This document shows positions 9,793 through 25,818 of a stretch of 32,607 bases of DNA, piece after piece. The DNA is from an uncultured Spirochaeta sp. (GTDB taxonomy: Bacteria; Spirochaetota; Spirochaetia; DTKZ01): the NCBI GenBank assembly GCA_937140905.1, contig CAKZQO010000253.1, positions 1-32,607 on the forward strand, written 5' to 3'. A program made the position numbers and the translations under genes. Position 1 is the first letter of the stretch. Each line of letters opens with the position of its first letter. The notes beneath the pieces are model-generated. The model was given only the letters and a program-made list of their open reading frames with translations. It was not told where the DNA came from and ran no database searches.

Positions 9793-11258
9793 GGGGCAGA
9801 CTCCAGAGGAAGAAGGATCTGGACTAGGGTACCGTTCCCCGGTTCGGAATGGATGTGTACCTTTCCCTTTCCCGAAGTGGCAAGGACTACCCTTCGTACC
9901 ACGTTGTACAATCCGATCCGAATGGACGGATGGGTTGCTTCTGCATGGGCAGCATTGAGTACTTTCTCCATTTCCTCTTTTTCCATCCCCTTACCTGTGT
10001 CACTCACTACCATCTCCAAGTAAGGAGCACGGATTTGTACCGAGATATACACCTTTCCCCCGTTCTCTAGATCGTGCAAACCATGAACTATAGCATTTTC
10101 GATGAGAGGCTGTAAAAGTAATGCGGGTGTTTGGTATAAAAATACTCCCTCAGCGATTTCCCACTCGAATTGGAACCGATCCTTGAAGCGTAGTTGTAAA
10201 AGCCAGACGTACCTACGTGCGCATTCGATCTCCTCCGACACCAATACAAAGCGGTTGGACGGTCGTAGGACATATCGTATAAAATCCGCCAATTTTTCCA
10301 GGAACTCAGCGGTAGCTTCGTCTTTCTCTGCCAGAGCAAGTTGCCAGCCTGCCGATAGAGTGTTGTACAGGAAGTGAGGATTGATCTGGCTCTGCAAGGC
10401 AAGTAGTTCGGCTTCTTTTAATTTATGCTCGTAATCTAGCACGTGCATCTGTTGTTCGAGAAGTTTCCGCTCCAATTCCGCCTTTCGTTGTAACTCTTCG
10501 AAAGCTTCCCGTATGCTCTTCTGCATCCGGCTGAATGCACTATGGAGAGTTCCGATCTCATCGTTACCCTCATAGGGAGGAAGCTCGGAGTGATAGTTCC
10601 TGCGCTCCATCTCCTCCACTGTATTGGATAACCGTTCTAGTGGCTCACTGATCATAAAGGAGTACCGGATCATCAGTAGGGTACTGAGCAGAAAGGCGAG
10701 AAGGATAAGCAGCAAATTAAAAAGGAGAATGGTGTTTAGGATTTTCCTGTAACCTGTAAAAGCCTGCAACACTCCATCGAGATAGAGGGTATTCATTCTC
10801 GTGAGAAGGAATTGGATCAACCCCTCTAACTGCTTGCATTCCTCGTACAGATTCACGTAGGTACTTACATCCCTTCCTCTCTTCGCTTTTACTGCCCCTT
10901 CACTAGCGGATAGATACTCTCGGAGAAGGGAAGCTAGGTTCTTCTCCAACAGCAAGAGTTCATCCTTTCGGATCTCCTTGTTCAATGCCTTGATCTGGTC
11001 ATTAAGAAAGGAAGAATACCGGATGTATTCCTTCAAGGATTCAGAGTTCTTTGCCAGTAGGTAGCCGGTTAGATACTGTTGGGTCTTCTCTAGATTCTCC
11101 CAGATGTTCCTCTTCAGGAACAGGTTATTCTTCAGGAGCAGTTCAATGCTCTGTGCCAGTTCCAAAGAACTAAATACGGTATAAAGAGTTATGGAGGAGA
11201 GGATTAGAATGATGATGAAGGAGTTCCCAACGATACGGTTCCGTAGTTTGTGCTTCAT
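9789..11258 (-). CDS. Sensor histidine kinase, LytS/YesM type (two TM helices, HAMP, His_kinase)
   Basis: 489 aa; LALQSQINPHFLYNTLSAGWQLA phosphoacceptor region, LLLQPLIENAIVHGL N-box, DTGKGM; TM helices flank a roughly 150 aa helical extracytoplasmic region. ATGA overlap with the response regulator. Confidence 0.93.
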   Translation of the reverse strand: MKHKLRNRIVGNSFIIILILSSITLYTVFSSLELAQSIELLLKNNLFLKRNIWENLEKTQQYLTGYLLAKNSESLKEYIRYSSFLNDQIKALNKEIRKDELLLLEKNLASLLREYLSASEGAVKAKRGRDVSTYVNLYEECKQLEGLIQFLLTRMNTLYLDGVLQAFTGYRKILNTILLFNLLLILLAFLLSTLLMIRYSFMISEPLERLSNTVEEMERRNYHSELPPYEGNDEIGTLHSAFSRMQKSIREAFEELQRKAELERKLLEQQMHVLDYEHKLKEAELLALQSQINPHFLYNTLSAGWQLALAEKDEATAEFLEKLADFIRYVLRPSNRFVLVSEEIECARRYVWLLQLRFKDRFQFEWEIAEGVFLYQTPALLLQPLIENAIVHGLHDLENGGKVYISVQIRAPYLEMVVSDTGKGMEKEEMEKVLNAAHAEATHPSIRIGLYNVVRRVVLATSGKGKVHIHSEPGNGTLVQILLPLESAP

Positions 11259-16131: not shown

Positions 16132-16166
16132 CGGCTTGGACATCTAGTCCAAGCCGTATTTTTTTA
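16132..16166 (+). terminator. Rho-independent terminator of oxidoreductase operon overlapping the 3' end of the convergent ntrC-like gene
   Basis: CGGCTTGGA-catctag-TCCAAGCCG then tattttttta; the right arm is the last codons of the minus-strand gene ending at 16144. Confidence 0.85.
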
Positions 16167-17478
16167 TCTTGTATTGCAAGGTTCTCCGACTGATTCCTAG
16201 CTCCTTTGCCGCTTTCGTTCGATTTCCACCCTGACGCCGAAGAGCTAATTCGATAGATGCCCTTTCTAGATCCTCCAACCGGGTAGCCCCAGATAGAACG
16301 GTCCCTTTTGGCTCTTCCATTATTCTCGATTCCTTCAACTCAATATGGTCGGGAAGGATTTCCCGCCCCTCGCTCAGGATGACCGCTCGTTCGAGGATGT
16401 TTTCCAATTCCCGAACATTTCCTGGATACTCGTAGGAAAGAAGCTTTGCCAAGCTCTGGGAGCTTAACCGTTTGGCCCCTACATTCAACCTCTTACAGAT
16501 TCGTACCAAAAGGTACTCTGCAATCAAGGGGATATCCGATTTTCGCTCCCGTAACGGGGGAATATCGATCCGGATCACGTTCAACCGATAGAATAAATCC
16601 TCCCGGAACTCGCCCTGTCGAACCCGCTCCTCCAGATTCCGATTTGTAGCCGAAAGGATTCGCGCCCGGATCGGAATGTCCCGGTTTCCACCGATCCGAC
16701 GGATCTTCCTATCCTGTAGGACCCGAAGGAGTTTTACCTGAAGGGCAAGGGGCATTTCCGCTATCTCGTCCAGGAACAAGGTTCCGGCCCCTGCTAGTTC
16801 GAATAGACCGATCTTCCGGCAATCTGCCCCGGTAAAAGCCCCCTTTTCATGACCGAACAATTCACTTTCGATGAGGGTATGAGGCAAAGCGCCCACGTTT
16901 ACGCCGATAAAGGGCTCCTCCTTCCGTGAAGAAGCCGCGTGGATCTGCCGAGCCACGATCTCTTTCCCGGTTCCTGTTTCCCCCGTAATGAGAACCGTGG
17001 AATCGGTACCGCCTACCTTGAGGATGAGGGATCGGATCTCTTCAATTCTTGGATGCTTCCCGATTAAAGAATACTCCTTCGGTTCTATCCTACGACTCGC
17101 TTCCCATACCTGCTTCCTTCGTTCCTCTTCCACCAGGGTGCGGATTTTCTGCAGCAGCAAATCGGTATCTAAGGGCTTTTCCAGGAAATCCCGGGCTCCG
17201 CTCTTCAGGGCCTGAACCGCATCCGGAATCTCCCCATGGGCAGAGATCATCACGATAGGAACCAACACCCCCTCTTCTAGTGTCCACTCCAACACTTCCT
17301 GGCCGGACATCCCGGGCATTTTCAGATCCAGGATCGCCACGTCAAACCGCTCCTCTGCTAGAAGATCCCGCGCCGTGATACCATCCGGTGCCGTTACCGC
17401 CTCGATTCCCTCTAGTAGAAAGATTCTTTTAAGGGTTTCCCGAATATTTCGCTCATCGTCCGCGATCAGCACCCGCAT
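16144..17478 (-). CDS. NtrC-family sigma54-dependent response regulator (REC, AAA+, Fis HTH)
   Basis: 444 aa; DVAILDLKMPGMSG, GETGTGKEIVARQIH, GHEKGAFTGAD, LFLDEIAEMPL, NRTKAAKELGISRRTLQYKIKKYGLD. Confidence 0.97.
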   Translation of the reverse strand: MRVLIADDERNIRETLKRIFLLEGIEAVTAPDGITARDLLAEERFDVAILDLKMPGMSGQEVLEWTLEEGVLVPIVMISAHGEIPDAVQALKSGARDFLEKPLDTDLLLQKIRTLVEEERRKQVWEASRRIEPKEYSLIGKHPRIEEIRSLILKVGGTDSTVLITGETGTGKEIVARQIHAASSRKEEPFIGVNVGALPHTLIESELFGHEKGAFTGADCRKIGLFELAGAGTLFLDEIAEMPLALQVKLLRVLQDRKIRRIGGNRDIPIRARILSATNRNLEERVRQGEFREDLFYRLNVIRIDIPPLRERKSDIPLIAEYLLVRICKRLNVGAKRLSSQSLAKLLSYEYPGNVRELENILERAVILSEGREILPDHIELKESRIMEEPKGTVLSGATRLEDLERASIELALRRQGGNRTKAAKELGISRRTLQYKIKKYGLD

Positions 17479-18868
17479 CTTCAGCCTCCGGTAAAGTTAT
17501 CCGCGCGATCGTCCCGCCCCCTTCCCTTGGTTCGACCCTCAAAGTTCCCCCAGCAGCTTCCACGAATCGTTTCGAAAGGAAAAGTCCAATTCCAAAACCC
17601 TTCGTTTTCGTCGTGTAGAAGGGATCGAACAACCGATCGAGTTCTTTTCCCGAAAGTCCTTCTCCCCGGTCCCACACCTCGACCACGATCTTCTTACCGA
17701 TCGAAGAAGCCCGGACTTTCACGGGTTCCACAGCTTCCGGATCCCTAATGCTTTCCCACGCGTTCTGGATCAGGTTTTCCAGAGCGGAACGGAAGCGATC
17801 CGTGTCCATCCACACGCGTTTCCCTAAGAGAGTTTCTGCGATTTCTATCCGTACCTCCGGGAATCGCTTCTTTACCACTCCTTCAACCATTTCCCGGGCA
17901 TCCCACACCGTGGGTTGCCCAAGAGGTTCCCGGATGAGGTCACCAATTCGGTCTACCATTCGCCTCATTCTATTCACTTCTTCCCGAATCACCGATAGTT
18001 CCTCCGAGACCGTACCTGAACATACCCGTTGAAGGAGATCCGCTTGAAGTGCAATGGCGCTCAAGGGATTCTTAAACTCATGGGCTAACGCCCGGGAAGC
18101 GGAACCCAATAGGACCAATTCCTCTTGCTCCCGGAGTTTCGTTCGGTATTCCCAGTTCCGAAGAACCAACCCTCTCCCTACGTACAACCCCAGGAGGAAA
18201 AGTCCTTCCAGCACAAAAAAAACCACGTAACACACTGTCCGTTGAACCCAGTAGTTCGGATTGTACAACTCCAGGTAGAGGAACTGGTTGGGAGCTTCGT
18301 TCGGATGGAGCCGTACCCTTCGAAAGTCGACCAGGGGCTGTAGAATGACGAGACTTCGATTCTTTGGGTTGAACAGGTAATGTCTGTAGGGAAAGTCCAT
18401 GGCAGACCTTTCAGGAGAGGGCATTCTGAACAAAGGAGGGGCGCTTCCGAACCGAACTAGAGCGTCCCCGTTCGCTTTATACAAACCCACTCCCGCCACT
18501 CGATTCTTGAGTTGTTCATTGCTCTGAACGATCCCTTCCAGGATCCGCACGTCCCCCTCGAAATCGGGGAATGGGGGTTCCCTGCTCTCCACAGGAGAAC
18601 TTCTGTCCCCGGGCGGAGGTCTTCTTTTCCATCCTTCCGCTTCCCGGATAGCGCGCAAAGAGACTGCGAGGTAGTTGAGAAACCGTTCTCCCTCGTTCCG
18701 AGCGGTCAGTTCCAAGGCGAACAATTGCCCTTTCAGGATTATCCACCCGATCAGAACGCTCAACGCCATTAGACTCCCCGTGACGACCCAGGATAAAAGG
18801 ATCGTGCGAGAAGAAAGACGTCCGTAAGGGCTACTTTGTTTGTCTGAGAAAGGTAACAAAGGAATCAT
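17453..18868 (-). CDS. Sensor histidine kinase partner of the NtrC-type regulator
   Basis: 471 aa; two TM segments, ALAHEFKNPLSAIALQADLL H-box, ALENLIQNAWESI, FDPFYTTKTKGFGIGLFLSKRFVE. Start may be TTG at 18859, since GAGGAGG directly abuts the ATG at 18868. Confidence 0.93.
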   Translation of the reverse strand: MIPLLPFSDKQSSPYGRLSSRTILLSWVVTGSLMALSVLIGWIILKGQLFALELTARNEGERFLNYLAVSLRAIREAEGWKRRPPPGDRSSPVESREPPFPDFEGDVRILEGIVQSNEQLKNRVAGVGLYKANGDALVRFGSAPPLFRMPSPERSAMDFPYRHYLFNPKNRSLVILQPLVDFRRVRLHPNEAPNQFLYLELYNPNYWVQRTVCYVVFFVLEGLFLLGLYVGRGLVLRNWEYRTKLREQEELVLLGSASRALAHEFKNPLSAIALQADLLQRVCSGTVSEELSVIREEVNRMRRMVDRIGDLIREPLGQPTVWDAREMVEGVVKKRFPEVRIEIAETLLGKRVWMDTDRFRSALENLIQNAWESIRDPEAVEPVKVRASSIGKKIVVEVWDRGEGLSGKELDRLFDPFYTTKTKGFGIGLFLSKRFVEAAGGTLRVEPREGGGTIARITLPEAEDAGADRGR

Positions 18869-20234
18869 CCTCCTCGAATCCCAGTAGATACTTCAATTGT
18901 AACCAGTATCTATAGAGGGCATACCGGGCCGAAAGCAACTGCGCCCTCGCGTCGGAAAGGGTGCTTTCCGCATCGGAAACCTCCATCAAGGTCGCCTTGG
19001 AAAGGGAATACTTCTCATACACCTGTCGATAGTTCTCTTCTCCAAACTCCACCGAGGCTTGCGCTGCTTCGATCCTTCGCAAAGCTACCACGATCCCCTG
19101 TACATACTCCACCACGCTGGATTCAACGGCACGGACCTGTTCCCGTAGTTGAGCGCTTAGAGTTACCTTCGCGTTTTCCGCTTTCCCAACGGCCGCCTTT
19201 TTGTCCTGAAAGGGAAGGATGGGAACGGTAGCCGACACGGTTACTTTGCCCGTATCGGTGAAGGATCCCGCATCTTTCCATAACCCCGAAAAAGTATGGG
19301 ACCACCCCAAGGAGAGGGTCGGATAGAAAGCTGCCTCTTTAATCTGAACGTTCAGGTCTTGGATCTGTAGGGACAGTTCCAGCGCGTTCAGATCTGGATT
19401 GTGTTCCAGCGCGAAAGCCTTCAATTTTTCGATGAACGGGGCAAGAGAATCTAAAGAAATCGTTCGTTCGACATCCAGAAAAAAGAGGTCTTCCGGCACG
19501 AGGGAAGGGGTTAAATACAACTCCCCTATACGGGATAAACCCAACGCAATCTGTAGTTTGCTTCTACTGAGTCTCTCAGCATACTCCGCCTGGTACAAAG
19601 CCGCCTGTTTGGTCTTGTACTTCGATTGAGCCTGGAGGTACACCACTTTGTCCACCGCGCCCACCTCATACCTCCCTCTGGCTACCTCTAGAGATTTTTC
19701 CGCTGCTTGGAGTTCCTTTTGGGCGACTGCGCGGGCATCCTGTTTTTCCAATAGATCGAAGAACAAAGTCTCCGCTGTTTGCAAGACGCTGTTGCGAACC
19801 GAAGCTTCACTGATCTTGGCTTTGGTAATCGATAGGGCAGTCTGCCTGAGAGAAGCCAACCGGGCTCCTCCCGAATAGAGTTGCTGGGAAAGACTGATCC
19901 CGTAACTAGCACTGGGATCGGTGGAACTAGGCCCATCGTTGAGGGAGGGATAGGGGATACCCACGGAACCCTGCAGGGAAAGATTCGGATAGAAGGAAGC
20001 AATGGCAGAGTCTCGATCCAGCTTACTGTTTTCAACATCCTGCATCGCGCTAATGACCTTGGATGAGTTGGCGAGGGCGAGTTTTCGCACCTGTTGTAAG
20101 GTAAGAGGCTCCCCTCCTTCGGCCCAAGAAACTCCAGCACCCGTCCCGATAAGAAATAGTACCATCCAGATCGCCACAGCGGGCATCTTTATGGGTATAA
20201 AATTACATTTCCTTGGCATATACGCTTTCCTCAT
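18831..20234 (-). CDS. TolC-family outer-membrane efflux protein
   Basis: 467 aa; signal peptide ending in WAEG, LTLQQVRKLALANS, duplicated helical repeats, ISLSQQLYSGG. Start could be an internal Met. Confidence 0.9.
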   Translation of the reverse strand: MRKAYMPRKCNFIPIKMPAVAIWMVLFLIGTGAGVSWAEGGEPLTLQQVRKLALANSSKVISAMQDVENSKLDRDSAIASFYPNLSLQGSVGIPYPSLNDGPSSTDPSASYGISLSQQLYSGGARLASLRQTALSITKAKISEASVRNSVLQTAETLFFDLLEKQDARAVAQKELQAAEKSLEVARGRYEVGAVDKVVYLQAQSKYKTKQAALYQAEYAERLSRSKLQIALGLSRIGELYLTPSLVPEDLFFLDVERTISLDSLAPFIEKLKAFALEHNPDLNALELSLQIQDLNVQIKEAAFYPTLSLGWSHTFSGLWKDAGSFTDTGKVTVSATVPILPFQDKKAAVGKAENAKVTLSAQLREQVRAVESSVVEYVQGIVVALRRIEAAQASVEFGEENYRQVYEKYSLSKATLMEVSDAESTLSDARAQLLSARYALYRYWLQLKYLLGFEEDDSFVTFLRQTK

Positions 20235-20246
20235 ACAGGTCCTTTC

Positions 20247-21440
20247 TCATTCAGTGCGTAACGCTTCGATCGGATTGAGGCCGGAAGCTTTGCGAGCCGG
20301 ATAGTACCCGAAAAAGACCCCCACGGAACCCGCGAACCCGGCAGAGACTAGGATGAACAGGGGGTTCACGATCGCTCGAATAGGGCTGAACTTCCCCAAC
20401 CCCGCCACCACTCCTAGGGAAAACAGGATCCCGATAGCACCGCCCAACAGGCTCAGCACGATGGATTCCGTGAGGAATTGGAGCAAGATATCCTTCCGCC
20501 TAGCCCCAACGGCCAACCGAACCCCGATTTCGCGGGTCCGTTCGGTTACCGAAACCAGCATGATGTTCATGATTCCGATCCCCCCTACCACGAGGGAAAC
20601 TCCCGCGATACAGGCCAGAAGGATCGTAAGGATCCGGGCTGTGGAGGAAGCCACTTCGATGATCTGGGATTGATTGAGGATCTCGAAATCGTTCTCTTTG
20701 TCATCGGCTAGCCGGTGGGAATCCCGAAGGATCCCCTCCACCTCTGCCTGCGCTTCCGTCATCTTATCCTCGGAAATCGCGCTGATTTCGATGGTACTCA
20801 GGTAGTTGTTACGGCTCAACCGTACTAACGCGGTTGTCAACGGAACCAGCACCACGTCATCCAAATCCTGTCCCATGGAATTGGTCCCCCGACTCTTCAA
20901 CAATCCCACCACCTGGAAGGGGGCATTCCCGATACGGAGGGTCTCTCCCACTCCGGTCACCCCGCCGAACAGATTCTTGGCTACCGTGCTACCGATGACC
21001 GCGATCTTGCGCCTCCCTTTCACGTCTTGTTCTGAAATGAACTCCCCTTCCTGCAGTTCCCACTGCTTGATCGCTTGGTAGTCGGGTTCGACCCCATACA
21101 CGATAGTGGACCAGTTCCCCGATCCTCCCACCACGGTAACCGATCGCCTTAGGGTACCGGAAACAGCCGAAACAAGGGTTGCCTCCGTTCGAATACGCTC
21201 CGCGTCCTTCTGGGTGAGCCGGTTGGCATCGAACCGGCCTCGGGGTGGCATCACGATCAACAGGTTTGATCCCATGGAATTGATGGTATCCCGGATCTGC
21301 GCCTGCGACCCTTCCCCGATCGCCACCATGATGATCACGGAACTCACTCCAATGATAATCCCCAGAGTCGTTAACAGGCTCCGCATTCGATTGCGAAAGA
21401 TACTCCTGAAGGAAAGCTTCACCAACACGGTAGGTTTCAT
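20247..21440 (-). CDS. MacB-type ABC transporter permease (FtsX/MacB)
   Basis: 397 aa; FRSIFRNRMRSLLTTLGIIIGVSSVIIMVAIGEGSQAQI, GGIGIMNIMLVSVTERTREIGVRLAVGARRKDILLQFLTES. Confidence 0.95.
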   Translation of the reverse strand: MKPTVLVKLSFRSIFRNRMRSLLTTLGIIIGVSSVIIMVAIGEGSQAQIRDTINSMGSNLLIVMPPRGRFDANRLTQKDAERIRTEATLVSAVSGTLRRSVTVVGGSGNWSTIVYGVEPDYQAIKQWELQEGEFISEQDVKGRRKIAVIGSTVAKNLFGGVTGVGETLRIGNAPFQVVGLLKSRGTNSMGQDLDDVVLVPLTTALVRLSRNNYLSTIEISAISEDKMTEAQAEVEGILRDSHRLADDKENDFEILNQSQIIEVASSTARILTILLACIAGVSLVVGGIGIMNIMLVSVTERTREIGVRLAVGARRKDILLQFLTESIVLSLLGGAIGILFSLGVVAGLGKFSPIRAIVNPLFILVSAGFAGSVGVFFGYYPARKASGLNPIEALRTE

Positions 21441-22186
21441 AGGGTATGCTCCTCCCGAAACCGTACCAGCACTTCTTCCGCTCGGGCGGGGTCTGGGATA
21501 GGACCATCCTGTAGGATTTTCCCATCCCTCACCACTACTTTCCTCTGGGCGAACCGAGCGATATCCGGCTCATGGGTGACCATCACGATGGTGATTCCTC
21601 CCCTATGCAACTCTTGGAATAGGGTCATGATTTCGAGGGACATCTCGGTGTCCAGGTTTCCCGTAGGTTCATCCGCTAAAATGAGGGAAGGCCGATTCAC
21701 CAACGCTCGAGCGATGGCTACCCGTTGCTGCTGACCTCCGGAAAGTTGGGAAGGCACATGATCCATCCGGTCTGCCAACCCTACCCGGGAGAGGGCCTCC
21801 TTGGCTTGATCCCTTAGGGCTCGGGTAGATTGACTTCCCCTCCGATACAGAAGGGGAAGCTCCACGTTTTCCAATGCCGTGGTCCGGGGAAGGAGGTTGA
21901 AACTCTGGAACACGAACCCAATCTTCGAGTTCCGGATTTCCGCGATCCGATCTGGATCCAGAGTGGTGACATCGATCCCTTCTAGGTAGTACTTTCCCTC
22001 GGTTGGGAGATCCAAGCATCCCATGATGTTCATGAGAGTAGTCTTCCCGGAGCCCGAGGCTCCCATGATCGCCACAAACTCTCCGGGATGAATCTCGAGA
22101 TCGATCCCATCCAGAGCTTTTACTGTTACACCCCCGTTCCCTGTACCATAGTACCGGCGAAGGCTCTCCATAACCACCAGGCTCAT
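21437..22186 (-). CDS. MacB-type ABC transporter ATP-binding protein
   Basis: 249 aa; GASGSGKTTLMNIMG, QLSGGQQQRVAIARAL, LADEPTGNLD; ATGA overlaps with both neighbours. Confidence 0.96.
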   Translation of the reverse strand: MSLVVMESLRRYYGTGNGGVTVKALDGIDLEIHPGEFVAIMGASGSGKTTLMNIMGCLDLPTEGKYYLEGIDVTTLDPDRIAEIRNSKIGFVFQSFNLLPRTTALENVELPLLYRRGSQSTRALRDQAKEALSRVGLADRMDHVPSQLSGGQQQRVAIARALVNRPSLILADEPTGNLDTEMSLEIMTLFQELHRGGITIVMVTHEPDIARFAQRKVVVRDGKILQDGPIPDPARAEEVLVRFREEHTL

Positions 22187-23547
22187 TGCTTCATCCTCAC
22201 GATCACCTGTAGACCATCCAGCGATTCCCCATCCATCACTTCGGTGAACTTGCCATCCGAGATTCCTGTACGCACATACCGGAGTCTAATGTTTCCATCC
22301 TCCTGGAGAATCCAAATCGGTTTTCCCTCAAACCGAGCTTCTCCGGACGAAGCACCCGGGGCTCCAGTGCCCGGACTGTTTCGGTTCGGTATAGACCCAC
22401 TACCCAAAGAACCACCGCTAGAGGATCTAGCGGGAGGACGCCCCGCTCCGGGCACGAAGGGCATTCCCCCCAACACTCCGACCTGCGCGTTGGGTCTACC
22501 CGTACCCCCCTTTTTGATCGCTTCATCGTACTGCTTCAGCATCCTTTCCCTCTCCTCCTGGGGCAGGTGAGCGATCCGTTCTTCGAACTGCTTCCTTCGC
22601 ACAGCCGCAGCCACATCAGCGGGTGGGTTGAACTTCAACGCTGCGTTAGGGACCATCCACACGTTTTCCTTACGATTCACGAAGAACTCCACGGTAGCGG
22701 TGAGGCCGGGCAGGAGAAGATTGTCTGGGTTCTTGGAATCGATCACCACTGTATAGTTCACGATATTGTTCGAGGTGGTGGGCATTTTACGGATCTGCCG
22801 TACCTTTCCGGTAAACTTACGATCGGGAAACGCCTCCACGGTGAATCGAACTTCCTGTCCATCCCGGATCTTCCCAATATCGATTTCATCTACTTGGGCG
22901 TAGATTTCCAGGTTCTCCAGGTTTTCTGCCAGGGTAAACAGCCTGGTTACCGATCCGGAGTTTGCCACCACCGTCTGACCCTTATCGATGTTCCGCTCCA
23001 ACACGATTCCGGTGATGGGAGATAGGATCTTCGCATACTGCTCCAGGTTCAACCGCGCCTTCTCGTACGCTACCTGAGCGCTTTCCAGGTCCGCCTTTGC
23101 CGATTCCAGACTAGTCCTACTGGATAAAAGATCGGCCTCGGAAAGGAGGTTCCGCTTCTGGAGTTGTAGGTTCTTATCGTAGGTAGCCTGAGCCTCCTCT
23201 GCCTTCGCCTTCGCTTTCCGTAGAGTAGCTTCTTGTTCCCGCAGGCTGAGGAGCAACATACTCTTATCCAATTCCGCAAGGAGCTGCCCCTTCCTAACTC
23301 GATCATTGTAATCCACGTATACCGATTCAATGGTTCCCGTCAGTTGGGTGAGTACTTCCACACTTCCCTTGGCCTGGATCGTCCCCGTGCTGCTCACCGT
23401 CTCTTCGATGGTTCCGCGGCGAATCGCCTGGGTTTCATACCCTATCTTCTTCGTTTCCTTCGAGTTGAAGAATGCGTAGGTTACCGCGCCCATCACCAGA
23501 ATAACCAAGAGAAAAATCGAAACTTTGATACCTGTTTTTCCTCTCAT
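22183..23547 (-). CDS. Membrane fusion protein of tripartite efflux pump (MacA/HlyD-like)
   Basis: 454 aa; N-terminal TM, IRRGTIEETVSSTGTIQAKGSVEVLTQLTGTIESVYVDYNDRVRKGQLLAELD, coiled coil, SPITGIVLERNIDKGQTV. Confidence 0.92.
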   Translation of the reverse strand: MRGKTGIKVSIFLLVILVMGAVTYAFFNSKETKKIGYETQAIRRGTIEETVSSTGTIQAKGSVEVLTQLTGTIESVYVDYNDRVRKGQLLAELDKSMLLLSLREQEATLRKAKAKAEEAQATYDKNLQLQKRNLLSEADLLSSRTSLESAKADLESAQVAYEKARLNLEQYAKILSPITGIVLERNIDKGQTVVANSGSVTRLFTLAENLENLEIYAQVDEIDIGKIRDGQEVRFTVEAFPDRKFTGKVRQIRKMPTTSNNIVNYTVVIDSKNPDNLLLPGLTATVEFFVNRKENVWMVPNAALKFNPPADVAAAVRRKQFEERIAHLPQEERERMLKQYDEAIKKGGTGRPNAQVGVLGGMPFVPGAGRPPARSSSGGSLGSGSIPNRNSPGTGAPGASSGEARFEGKPIWILQEDGNIRLRYVRTGISDGKFTEVMDGESLDGLQVIVRMKQ

Positions 23548-23557
23548 GCAAATCTAG

Positions 23558-23574
23558 ATGCAAATCTTATGCCA
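23558..23574 (-). promoter_or_regulatory. Putative sigma54 (-24/-12) promoter of efflux/two-component operon
   Basis: Minus strand TGGCATAAGATTTGCAT: GG-N10-GC with TGGCA and TTGCA cores; predicted +1 near 23548. Confidence 0.75.
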
Positions 23575-23725
23575 TAATAACGGGGAAACCAGGGAATGTA
23601 GAAGGCAGAATGATAGTGAAGTTTATCTATTTATCTTACGATGAATTAGATTTGAATATCGAAGGATTTCGATGGGCCTGCTTGAACTGATTCACTACCC
23701 CACTAGCCGGATTAACTCCATTAGC

Positions 23726-23740
23726 GCGCAAATATTGCGC
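23726..23740. promoter_or_regulatory. Palindrome, candidate activator-binding site 1 (GCGCAA-ATA-TTGCGC)
   Basis: Perfect 6 bp arms; about 185 bp upstream of the predicted sigma54 start. Confidence 0.65.
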
Positions 23741-23746
23741 TACTGT

Positions 23747-23763
23747 CGCGCATGAATTGCGCG
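23747..23763. promoter_or_regulatory. Palindrome, candidate activator-binding site 2 (CGCGCA-TGAAT-TGCGCG)
   Basis: Perfect 6 bp arms; centre 22 bp from site 1. Confidence 0.65.
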
Positions 23764-23811: not shown

Positions 23812-24888
23812 TTACCTGTATTCTTTCGGGGTTACCTTGCCTTGTAGAACCCGTAATCCATTGTAGGCGAGAGCACGTAGCTCATCTTCCCCTGGATAGA
23901 TGAAAACGGGCCCTAAGTGCTTGATCCGATCGATCAGTTCCCGGGTAAAGGTCTCGCTAAAGGCGATGCCCCCCGTGATCAGGATCCCATCCACCTGACC
24001 TTTCAACACAGTGGAGAGGGCGCCAATCTCTTTTGCCACCTGGTACACCATCGCGTCCCGAACAAGCTTGGCTTTCGCGTCCCCCGAGGAAACCCGTTGT
24101 TCCACTTCCTGAGCGTTGTTGGTTCCCAAGTACGCCACGTACCCACCCTTTCCCGTGATCATCTTTTTCACGTCTTCCAGGGTGTACTTACCGCTGAAGC
24201 AGAGCTTTGCCAGATCCCCGGCGGGCAGGGTGCCGCTTCGTTCCGGCGAGAAGGGGCCTTCCCCGTCCAACGCCTGGTTCACGTCAATGACCCGCCCTTT
24301 GTAATGGGCGCCCACGCTAATACCACCCCCCAAATGCGCCACGATGAGGGACAGTTCTTCGTAAGATTTTCCGATTTTTTCCGCATGAAGACGGGCAATG
24401 GCTTTCTGGTTTAGGGCATGAAAGATCGATTTCCGTTCGAACAAGGGATGCCCCGAGATGCGGGCCACATCTTGCAGTTCATCTACTACCACAGGATCGG
24501 CGATGTATGCCTTGGCTCCGGGGATGGATCGGGCAATGTCCCGAGCGATCAAGCCCCCCAAGTTACTGGCATGTTCCCCTAAAAGGCCCGCTCTAAGGTC
24601 TTCCTCCATCTGGTCGTTCACCTCGTATACCCCGGAAGGCAAGGGTTTTATGAGTCCTCCCCGACCCATTACCACTCGGATAGCGGACACGTCTACTCCC
24701 GCTTCGGCTAATTCCTTTAGAATCGTGTTTTTCCGAAAATCGTACTGATCGGTGATCTTCTTAAAGGGGGCAAGTTCCTCCGCTGAATGGCGGATCGTTC
24801 TTTCCAGAATCAATTCCTCACCCTGGAATACCCCGATTTTGGTAGAAGTAGATCCAGGATTGATGGTGAGGATAAGTGCCTGTTCCAT
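23812..24888 (-). CDS. buk: Butyrate kinase (or branched-chain fatty acid kinase)
   Basis: 358 aa; LTINPGSTSTKIGVF, MGRGGLIKPLPSGVYEVN, AHLGGGISVGAHYKGRVIDVNQALDGEGPFSPERSG. Confidence 0.95.
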   Translation of the reverse strand: MEQALILTINPGSTSTKIGVFQGEELILERTIRHSAEELAPFKKITDQYDFRKNTILKELAEAGVDVSAIRVVMGRGGLIKPLPSGVYEVNDQMEEDLRAGLLGEHASNLGGLIARDIARSIPGAKAYIADPVVVDELQDVARISGHPLFERKSIFHALNQKAIARLHAEKIGKSYEELSLIVAHLGGGISVGAHYKGRVIDVNQALDGEGPFSPERSGTLPAGDLAKLCFSGKYTLEDVKKMITGKGGYVAYLGTNNAQEVEQRVSSGDAKAKLVRDAMVYQVAKEIGALSTVLKGQVDGILITGGIAFSETFTRELIDRIKHLGPVFIYPGEDELRALAYNGLRVLQGKVTPKEYR

Positions 24889-24915
24889 GATGAGACCTTC
24901 CTTACTTAGCGGCGT

Positions 24916-25818
24916 TCAATCGCGGCTCAATGCCACCGCCAGAGCAATGGAATAATGCTTACTTTGTTCCGAATCGGCCCGGCTAGTGAGTACGATCGGA
25001 GCCGCTGCTCCCAGTATAACCCCCGCAGCTACCGCGCCTCCGAGGAAGTTCAGAGCCTTGTAGATTAGGTTTCCGCTTTCGATATCGGGAACCAATAGGA
25101 TGTCGGCATCCCCCGCTACTTCACTTTCTATCCCTTTGTGTTGGGCTGCTTCCTTGGATACGGCATTGTCCAACGCGAGGGGGCCATCGATAAGGCACCC
25201 CTTGATCTGACCCCTTCGGTTCATTTGGGTCAGAAGGGCGGCATGAACCGTGGCGTCCATCTTTGGGTTCACCGTCTCCACTGCCGCTACCACCGCCACT
25301 TTGGGCAGATTGATTCCAATCTTATGGAACATTTCTACCGCGTTGGTGAGGATCGAAATCTTATCTTCGAAAGAGGGGGCCACGTTCATTCCCGCATCGG
25401 TTACGGCAAACAGTTTGTGGTAGTAGGGAGAATGAAACAAACCCAGATGACTTAGCAAGGCCCCAGAGCGAAGCCCTTTTTCCTTATCCAACACGACCTT
25501 CAGAAGGGCGGCTGTTTGCACCAACCCTTTCATCAACACCTCTGCCTTCTTTTCCCGAATGAGACTTACAGCTTTGGCGGCTGCTTCTACGGGATCCGAA
25601 GCGGGAATAAGCTCTGCCGCGGAGTAGTCGAATCCAATCTCCTTCATCAGACGTTCGGTTTCCTGCTTCGATCCTACGAGAATTGCTTCCACAATTCCTT
25701 CTTTTATCGCATCCCGGACAGCTTCCAGCACATGTTTGTCCTCGGATGCAGCCACAGCGATCCGTTTTTTCTTGCCCTGCTTAGCCTCTTCCACGAATTC
25801 TGCCAGGTTTTTCCGCAT
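24916..25818 (-). CDS. ptb: Phosphate butyryltransferase
   Basis: 300 aa; phosphate acyltransferase motifs AVTDAGMNVAPSFEDKISILTNAVEM and LLVPDIESGNLIYKALNFLGGAVAAGVILGAAAPIVLTSRADS; next to buk. Confidence 0.93.
   Translation of the reverse strand: MRKNLAEFVEEAKQGKKKRIAVAASEDKHVLEAVRDAIKEGIVEAILVGSKQETERLMKEIGFDYSAAELIPASDPVEAAAKAVSLIREKKAEVLMKGLVQTAALLKVVLDKEKGLRSGALLSHLGLFHSPYYHKLFAVTDAGMNVAPSFEDKISILTNAVEMFHKIGINLPKVAVVAAVETVNPKMDATVHAALLTQMNRRGQIKGCLIDGPLALDNAVSKEAAQHKGIESEVAGDADILLVPDIESGNLIYKALNFLGGAVAAGVILGAAAPIVLTSRADSEQSKHYSIALAVALSRD

Follow-up and report, generated by a model that had tools for sequence, protein, structure and literature searches.

Organization of the locus

The window analyzed here is a 32,607-nucleotide stretch of DNA from an uncultured Spirochaeta sp. 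(the whole of contig CAKZQO010000253.1), whose minus strand carries six genes running from 23547 to 16144, with mostly overlapping junctions (4–38 bp by ORF coordinates) and a single gap of 12 bp. The first gene (22183–23547) encodes a periplasmic adaptor, or membrane fusion protein (TIGR01730, 172 bits against a cut-off of 94.9), and lacks a Shine-Dalgarno (SD) sequence. It is followed by genes for an ABC transporter ATPase of the MacB/LolD type (21437–22186; PF00005, 1e-35), an FtsX/MacB-type permease (20247–21440; PF12704, 1.6e-49, and PF02687, 6e-20) and a TolC-family outer-membrane channel (18831–20234; PF02321, 2e-53), such that all components of a tripartite ABC exporter are encoded side by side. 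The last two genes code for a membrane histidine kinase with HisKA and HATPase_c domains (17453–18868) and an NtrC-family σ54 activator (16144–17478) with the domain composition of such response regulators: a receiver domain (REC), an AAA+ domain with the GAFTGA motif and a Fis-type helix-turn-helix (HTH_8) with a GISRRT recognition helix. An earlier note on this DNA had read the 3' end of the operon as a histidine kinase and a GAFTGA-containing NtrC-family regulator, and the domain searches agree. The N-terminal sensor region of the kinase, outside the catalytic core, gave no Pfam match above threshold.

Upstream of the operon lie genes for butyrate kinase and phosphate butyryltransferase (23812–25818). 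The same pair adjoins the pump in genomes G001 and G003, and was not detected there in the other relatives examined.

A putative σ54 promoter and paired palindromes

The region upstream of the adaptor gene contains a near-consensus -24/-12 element, TGGCATAAGATTTGCA, on the minus strand (23574–23559), with the GG-N10-GC spacing of σ54-dependent promoters. It is the sole match in the window to TGGCACN5TTGCW at up to one mismatch. The 3.57 Mb genome (G000) encodes rpoN (PF04552, E=2e-60, at G000:C168). Both the -24/-12 site described in the earlier note and the sigma factor whose absence would have counted against its proposal are present.

Further upstream are two palindromes that we predict to be enhancers. 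The proximal one, GCGCAAATATTGCGC (23726–23740), matches GCGCAAN3TTGCGC without mismatch and the distal one, GCGCATGAATTGCGC (23748–23762), with one mismatch. Their centers, at 23733 and 23755, are 22 bp apart, as had been claimed, and the ATG at 23547 is 186 and 208 bp downstream of them. Nothing else in the entire genome matches GCGCAAN3TTGCGC at 0–1 mismatch; allowing up to two mismatches gives 46 hits in total, fewer than the 65 obtained with a reversed-pattern control. A wider regulon marked by this palindrome was considered and rejected, there being no site at 0–1 mismatch elsewhere in the genome.

Conservation across the Spirochaetia

The six-gene operon recurs in multiple families of the Spirochaetia. 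Orthologous operons with the regulator gene at the 3' end are found within the same genus or family (G001 and G005–G008) and in other families of the class (G013, G413, G343 and G189), and in G396, G380 and G402 the regulator is located on a different contig from the pump. TolC was not detected within the operons of G005–G008, and in G003 the contig ends inside the ATPase gene. The pump-associated regulators (n=13) form a single supported clade (100/98), with four homologs that do not adjoin a detected pump falling outside it.

Upstream of the adaptor gene, σ54 scores are bimodal, being either near-perfect or at background. Sites were called at 18.5 or more of 20, a cut-off picked after the scores had been seen, using hand-set weights that in one run were slightly stricter (only C accepted at one position) than in later runs (C or T). 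By this measure, pump loci tend to have the σ54 site where the genome also has the orthologous NtrC-type regulator: the site is present by the adaptor gene at 48 of 50 loci whose genome has a regulator ortholog versus 12 of 33 without (Fisher p=2e-9, which, like the other p-value for this association, is only descriptive because the loci share ancestry and kinship is uncorrected). Many of the compared genomes are incomplete; among family f33 genomes at least 90% complete the counts, compiled by hand, are 17/17 with the regulator versus 3/10 without (p=1e-4). The 12 site-bearing loci in which a regulator ortholog was not detected are mostly in genomes less than 90% complete; in one case, G304, a sister homolog is present. 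G008 possesses the regulator and an adaptor gene with no adjoining σ54 site. A search for rpoN in the site-bearing genomes more than 90% complete gave no hit in G402, G380, G464 and G488.

Two genomes, G506 and G528, each contain two copies of the pump (L159/L203 and L179/L200 respectively), one with a σ54 site and one without.

In one genus, the regulators of G005–G008 (L053, L054, L055 and L056) have GAFTSA rather than GAFTGA in the σ54-contact loop. The σ54 promoter is intact in G005 and G006 despite this substitution.

Start codon and an apparently missing leader

The reading of the σ54 promoter in the earlier note is supported. A feature unremarked there is that the -12 element nearly abuts the start codon. 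Both in the window and in G001 the adaptor ATG begins 13 nt past the -12 C, and no SD sequence is present, leaving virtually no room for a 5' leader. The GG and GC boxes of σ54 promoters are numbered -24 and -12 (PMC4842269), and this numbering would place the adaptor ATG at +1 to +3 with a leader of about 0–3 nt; the predicted transcription start zone (23546–23549, minus strand) thus overlaps the ATG. As such, the adaptor mRNA is predicted to be leaderless or to have a leader of about 0–3 nt.

Transcription could instead begin further upstream, or translation at another start codon, with the remainder of the σ54 circuit unaffected. The start site is deduced from consensus spacing, and G003, of the same genus, has a 40-nt spacing and an SD sequence. 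However, no earlier start is possible for the adaptor because an in-frame stop sits just upstream, there is no alternative in-frame start before codon 14 in the window, and the N-terminus is conserved between the window and G001. The distribution of spacings among orthologs, for which start codons were chosen by rule, also argues against it. At 15 loci (the window, G001 and 13 other orthologs) the start codon lies at C+13 to C+15, is always ATG and has no usable SD sequence; in one of these, G504, an AGGA is present but precedes the predicted transcription start. Of the loci that have a σ54 site and whose start could be assigned, none falls at C+16 to C+19, and the others all have their start codon at C+20 or beyond, mostly behind AGGAG-like sequences. 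We therefore regard an upstream start or different codon as rather unlikely and retain the prediction of a leaderless adaptor mRNA.

The leaderless class is scattered over the adaptor tree, requiring seven changes by parsimony, at least four of which are forced by well-supported branches, in a tree that includes many partial sequences and several uncertain long branches. Leaderless and leadered neighbors occur within the same genus in three instances (G000/G001 versus G003, G538 versus G521, and G528 versus G506). On balance we favor the view that this σ54 promoter repeatedly drives a leaderless mRNA in the Spirochaetia, with several evolutionary switches to a downstream, usually SD-led, start. 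If so, an autogenous pump circuit would combine the most tightly gated type of promoter with leaderless translation. Such translation is plausible in spirochetes, since leaderless mRNAs abound in Leptospira: for L. interrogans, leaders that are very short or absent number in the hundreds (PMC5243855).

When σ54-to-ATG spacings were surveyed generally across 41 genomes, the result was too noisy for interpretation. In G000, G001 and G002 the σ54-like sites inspected include both SD-led starts and chance matches. Most of the other clear σ54-linked genes looked at in G000 and related genomes have an SD sequence and a start codon about 24–49 nt past the -12 C. An exception is a pdxA-like gene that follows a σ54-like site with its ATG at C+19 in G000 (L096, G000:C107:3945) and at C+16 in G001 (L101, G001:C82:3506), and has no clear SD sequence. 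The G005 locus (L053) differs from its close relatives in having an apparent leader of about 180 nt between the σ54 site and the adaptor ATG, which carries GC-rich inverted repeats.

Predicted enhancer-site variants and the recognition helix

The GCGCAAN3TTGCGC palindrome is found upstream of the σ54 site at 10 or more of 12 positions in 7/7 of the family f1, G013 and G413 loci (shuffled mean 0.1), and both σ54 site and palindromes are thus conserved in orthologous operons, contrary to what would have spoken against the original proposal. The two sites of a pair are spaced by 22 bp in G000 and G001, by 20 bp in G005 and G006, and by 28 bp in G013; G413 has one site, and G003 has a strong site with a weak overlapping second.

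The same sequence was tried in family f33, where the signal is weak: 11 of 51 loci match at 9 or more of 12 positions (shuffled mean 4.2, maximum 9) and only 1 of 51 at 10 or more. A generic best-pair palindrome score was insensitive. A de novo search of the 51 f33 regions returned GGGTA-N5-TACCC and its in-register variants as the top gapped palindromes, with exact copies in 7 loci as against 3 for the best among the nulls listed. The resulting motif, GGGTAAN3TTACCC, differs from GCGCAAN3TTGCGC at two positions in each half-site while keeping the 15-bp inverted-repeat geometry. With at least 10 of 12 positions matching, it occurs in 18 of 51 f33 loci (shuffled 0.3), often in pairs 28–33 bp apart, compared with 20–22 bp in f1. 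No clear palindrome was found in about half of the f33 loci.

The recognition helices of the regulators differ correspondingly, with SRRT in the genomes with GCGC sites and SRKT or TRKT in the f33 regulators examined (n=5). Taken together, the conserved, clade-specific sites and the differing recognition helices argue strongly, if indirectly, that the regulator encoded in the same operon binds the palindromes. The distance from the -24 element to the predicted enhancers varies from about 55 to 250 bp across loci, and is compatible with activation by looping and not by contact. A dedicated regulator with two clade-specific predicted binding sequences of one geometry would provide a natural data set for specificity change in the recognition helix of NtrC-type proteins.

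Alternatively, the palindromes might bind another protein or form a terminator hairpin at the 3' end of the butyrate kinase gene, leaving the σ54 promoter to be served by a distant activator. Their position, roughly 50–86 nt past the butyrate kinase stop codon, and the ability of the outer arms to pair in RNA would fit a hairpin, but a terminator search found none and there is no Rfam match, and the reading as a terminator or RNA element was rejected. Moreover, the palindromes are kept where butyrate kinase was not detected beside the pump (G005, G006, G013 and G413), which sequence variant they show goes with the clade of the regulator encoded in the operon, and the genome holds no further copy at 0–1 mismatch. 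We consider such an arrangement very unlikely, and treat the palindromes as probable sites of the operon's regulator in what follows.

In G396 (L060) the palindromic repeat AGTGTCTGACACT is arrayed in tandem within about 300 bp upstream of the σ54 site at 10271, a region in which relatives carry the predicted enhancer sites.

A proposed autogenous circuit

These comparisons suggest that the split MacAB-TolC-like pump operon is very probably driven by an autogenous σ54 two-component circuit with paired enhancers, and that its adaptor mRNA is probably leaderless. That the efflux operon is controlled by σ54 and by the regulator encoded at its own 3' end was the central proposal of the earlier note, and it gains support from the co-occurrence of site and regulator and from the clade-matched enhancer variants. 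It is very improbable that a sigma70-type promoter drives the operon to give a leadered transcript lacking an SD sequence, with the σ54 match incidental. Several genes in the window do lack an SD sequence, and a weak TCTACA-17-TATTAT match (9 of 12) overlaps the promoter region, but such matches occur at the chance rate, and dozens of orthologs retain the σ54 site, which most pump loci without the regulator lack.

Beyond the observed genes, sites and start-codon geometry, we infer how the σ54 circuit would work, from its signal, the phosphorylation of the regulator and its binding to DNA to the point at which transcription starts, the translation of a leaderless message and the export of a substrate. 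The kinase would sense an envelope or periplasmic signal and phosphorylate the NtrC-type regulator, dimers of which would bind both palindromes and assemble an AAA+ oligomer that opens the σ54 promoter at 23559–23574 through DNA looping. The transcript would begin no more than about 3 nt from the adaptor ATG; the adaptor would be read from this leaderless message, and translation of the downstream genes would rely on SD sequences and translational coupling. Transcription would raise both the pump and its regulator, forming a positive autogenous loop like that of glnA-ntrB-ntrC.

Comparison with known systems

The glnA-ntrB-ntrC (glnALG) operon of enteric bacteria is an autogenous σ54 operon. 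The operon described here resembles it in having a structural gene first, the kinase and NtrC-type regulator last, and a predicted σ54 promoter with paired upstream palindromes as putative enhancers. It differs in that the output is an efflux pump and not glutamine synthetase, the regulator is not an NtrC (NR-I) ortholog (TIGR01818, 398.2 bits against a cut-off of 558.6), the site sequence is different, and a 5' leader is apparently lacking.

The combination of a membrane kinase and a σ54 activator is shared with NtrC-family two-component systems of the ZraPSR and AtoSC type. Among NCBIfam models the kinase scores best against AtoS/ZraS and the regulator against AtoC, in every case below the equivalog cut-off; gene context and the sensor region differ. 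The pump has the adaptor, MacB-type ATPase and permease, and TolC of MacAB-TolC, although the ATPase and permease are separate proteins (237 and 257 bits against 966 for fused MacB) and scores fall under both the MacA and MacB equivalog cut-offs.

A 2025 study predicted σ54 control of FtsX-like ABC systems (COG0577/COG1136) in Gammaproteobacteria, Opitutia and Bacteroidia (PMC12316311), with σ54 promoters upstream of the same ABC class as here. In the available portion of that source the Spirochaetia are not named for COG0577/COG1136, and the regulator, enhancer site and leader of the present system are not analyzed. The very short or absent leaders of Leptospira interrogans offer a spirochetal parallel, and the accessible text of PMC5243855 does not link them to σ54 promoters.

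The description of this arrangement as not typical was thus overstated, because its wiring resembles glnA-ntrB-ntrC and σ54 control of FtsX-type ABC systems has been predicted (PMC12316311). A search of open-access papers found no account of the circuit itself. What appears to be new is a Spirochaetia-wide circuit, two enhancer variants with different recognition helices, and a recurring leaderless σ54 geometry. The circuit would make the promoter of an efflux pump strictly dependent on an activator, in a phylum with few known σ54 targets and, should the mRNA be leaderless, the joint use of σ54 transcription and leaderless translation for stress-responsive genes becomes testable. The closest named relative found, 'Spirochaetes bacterium isolate SKW186', has an adaptor 90% identical to that of the window.
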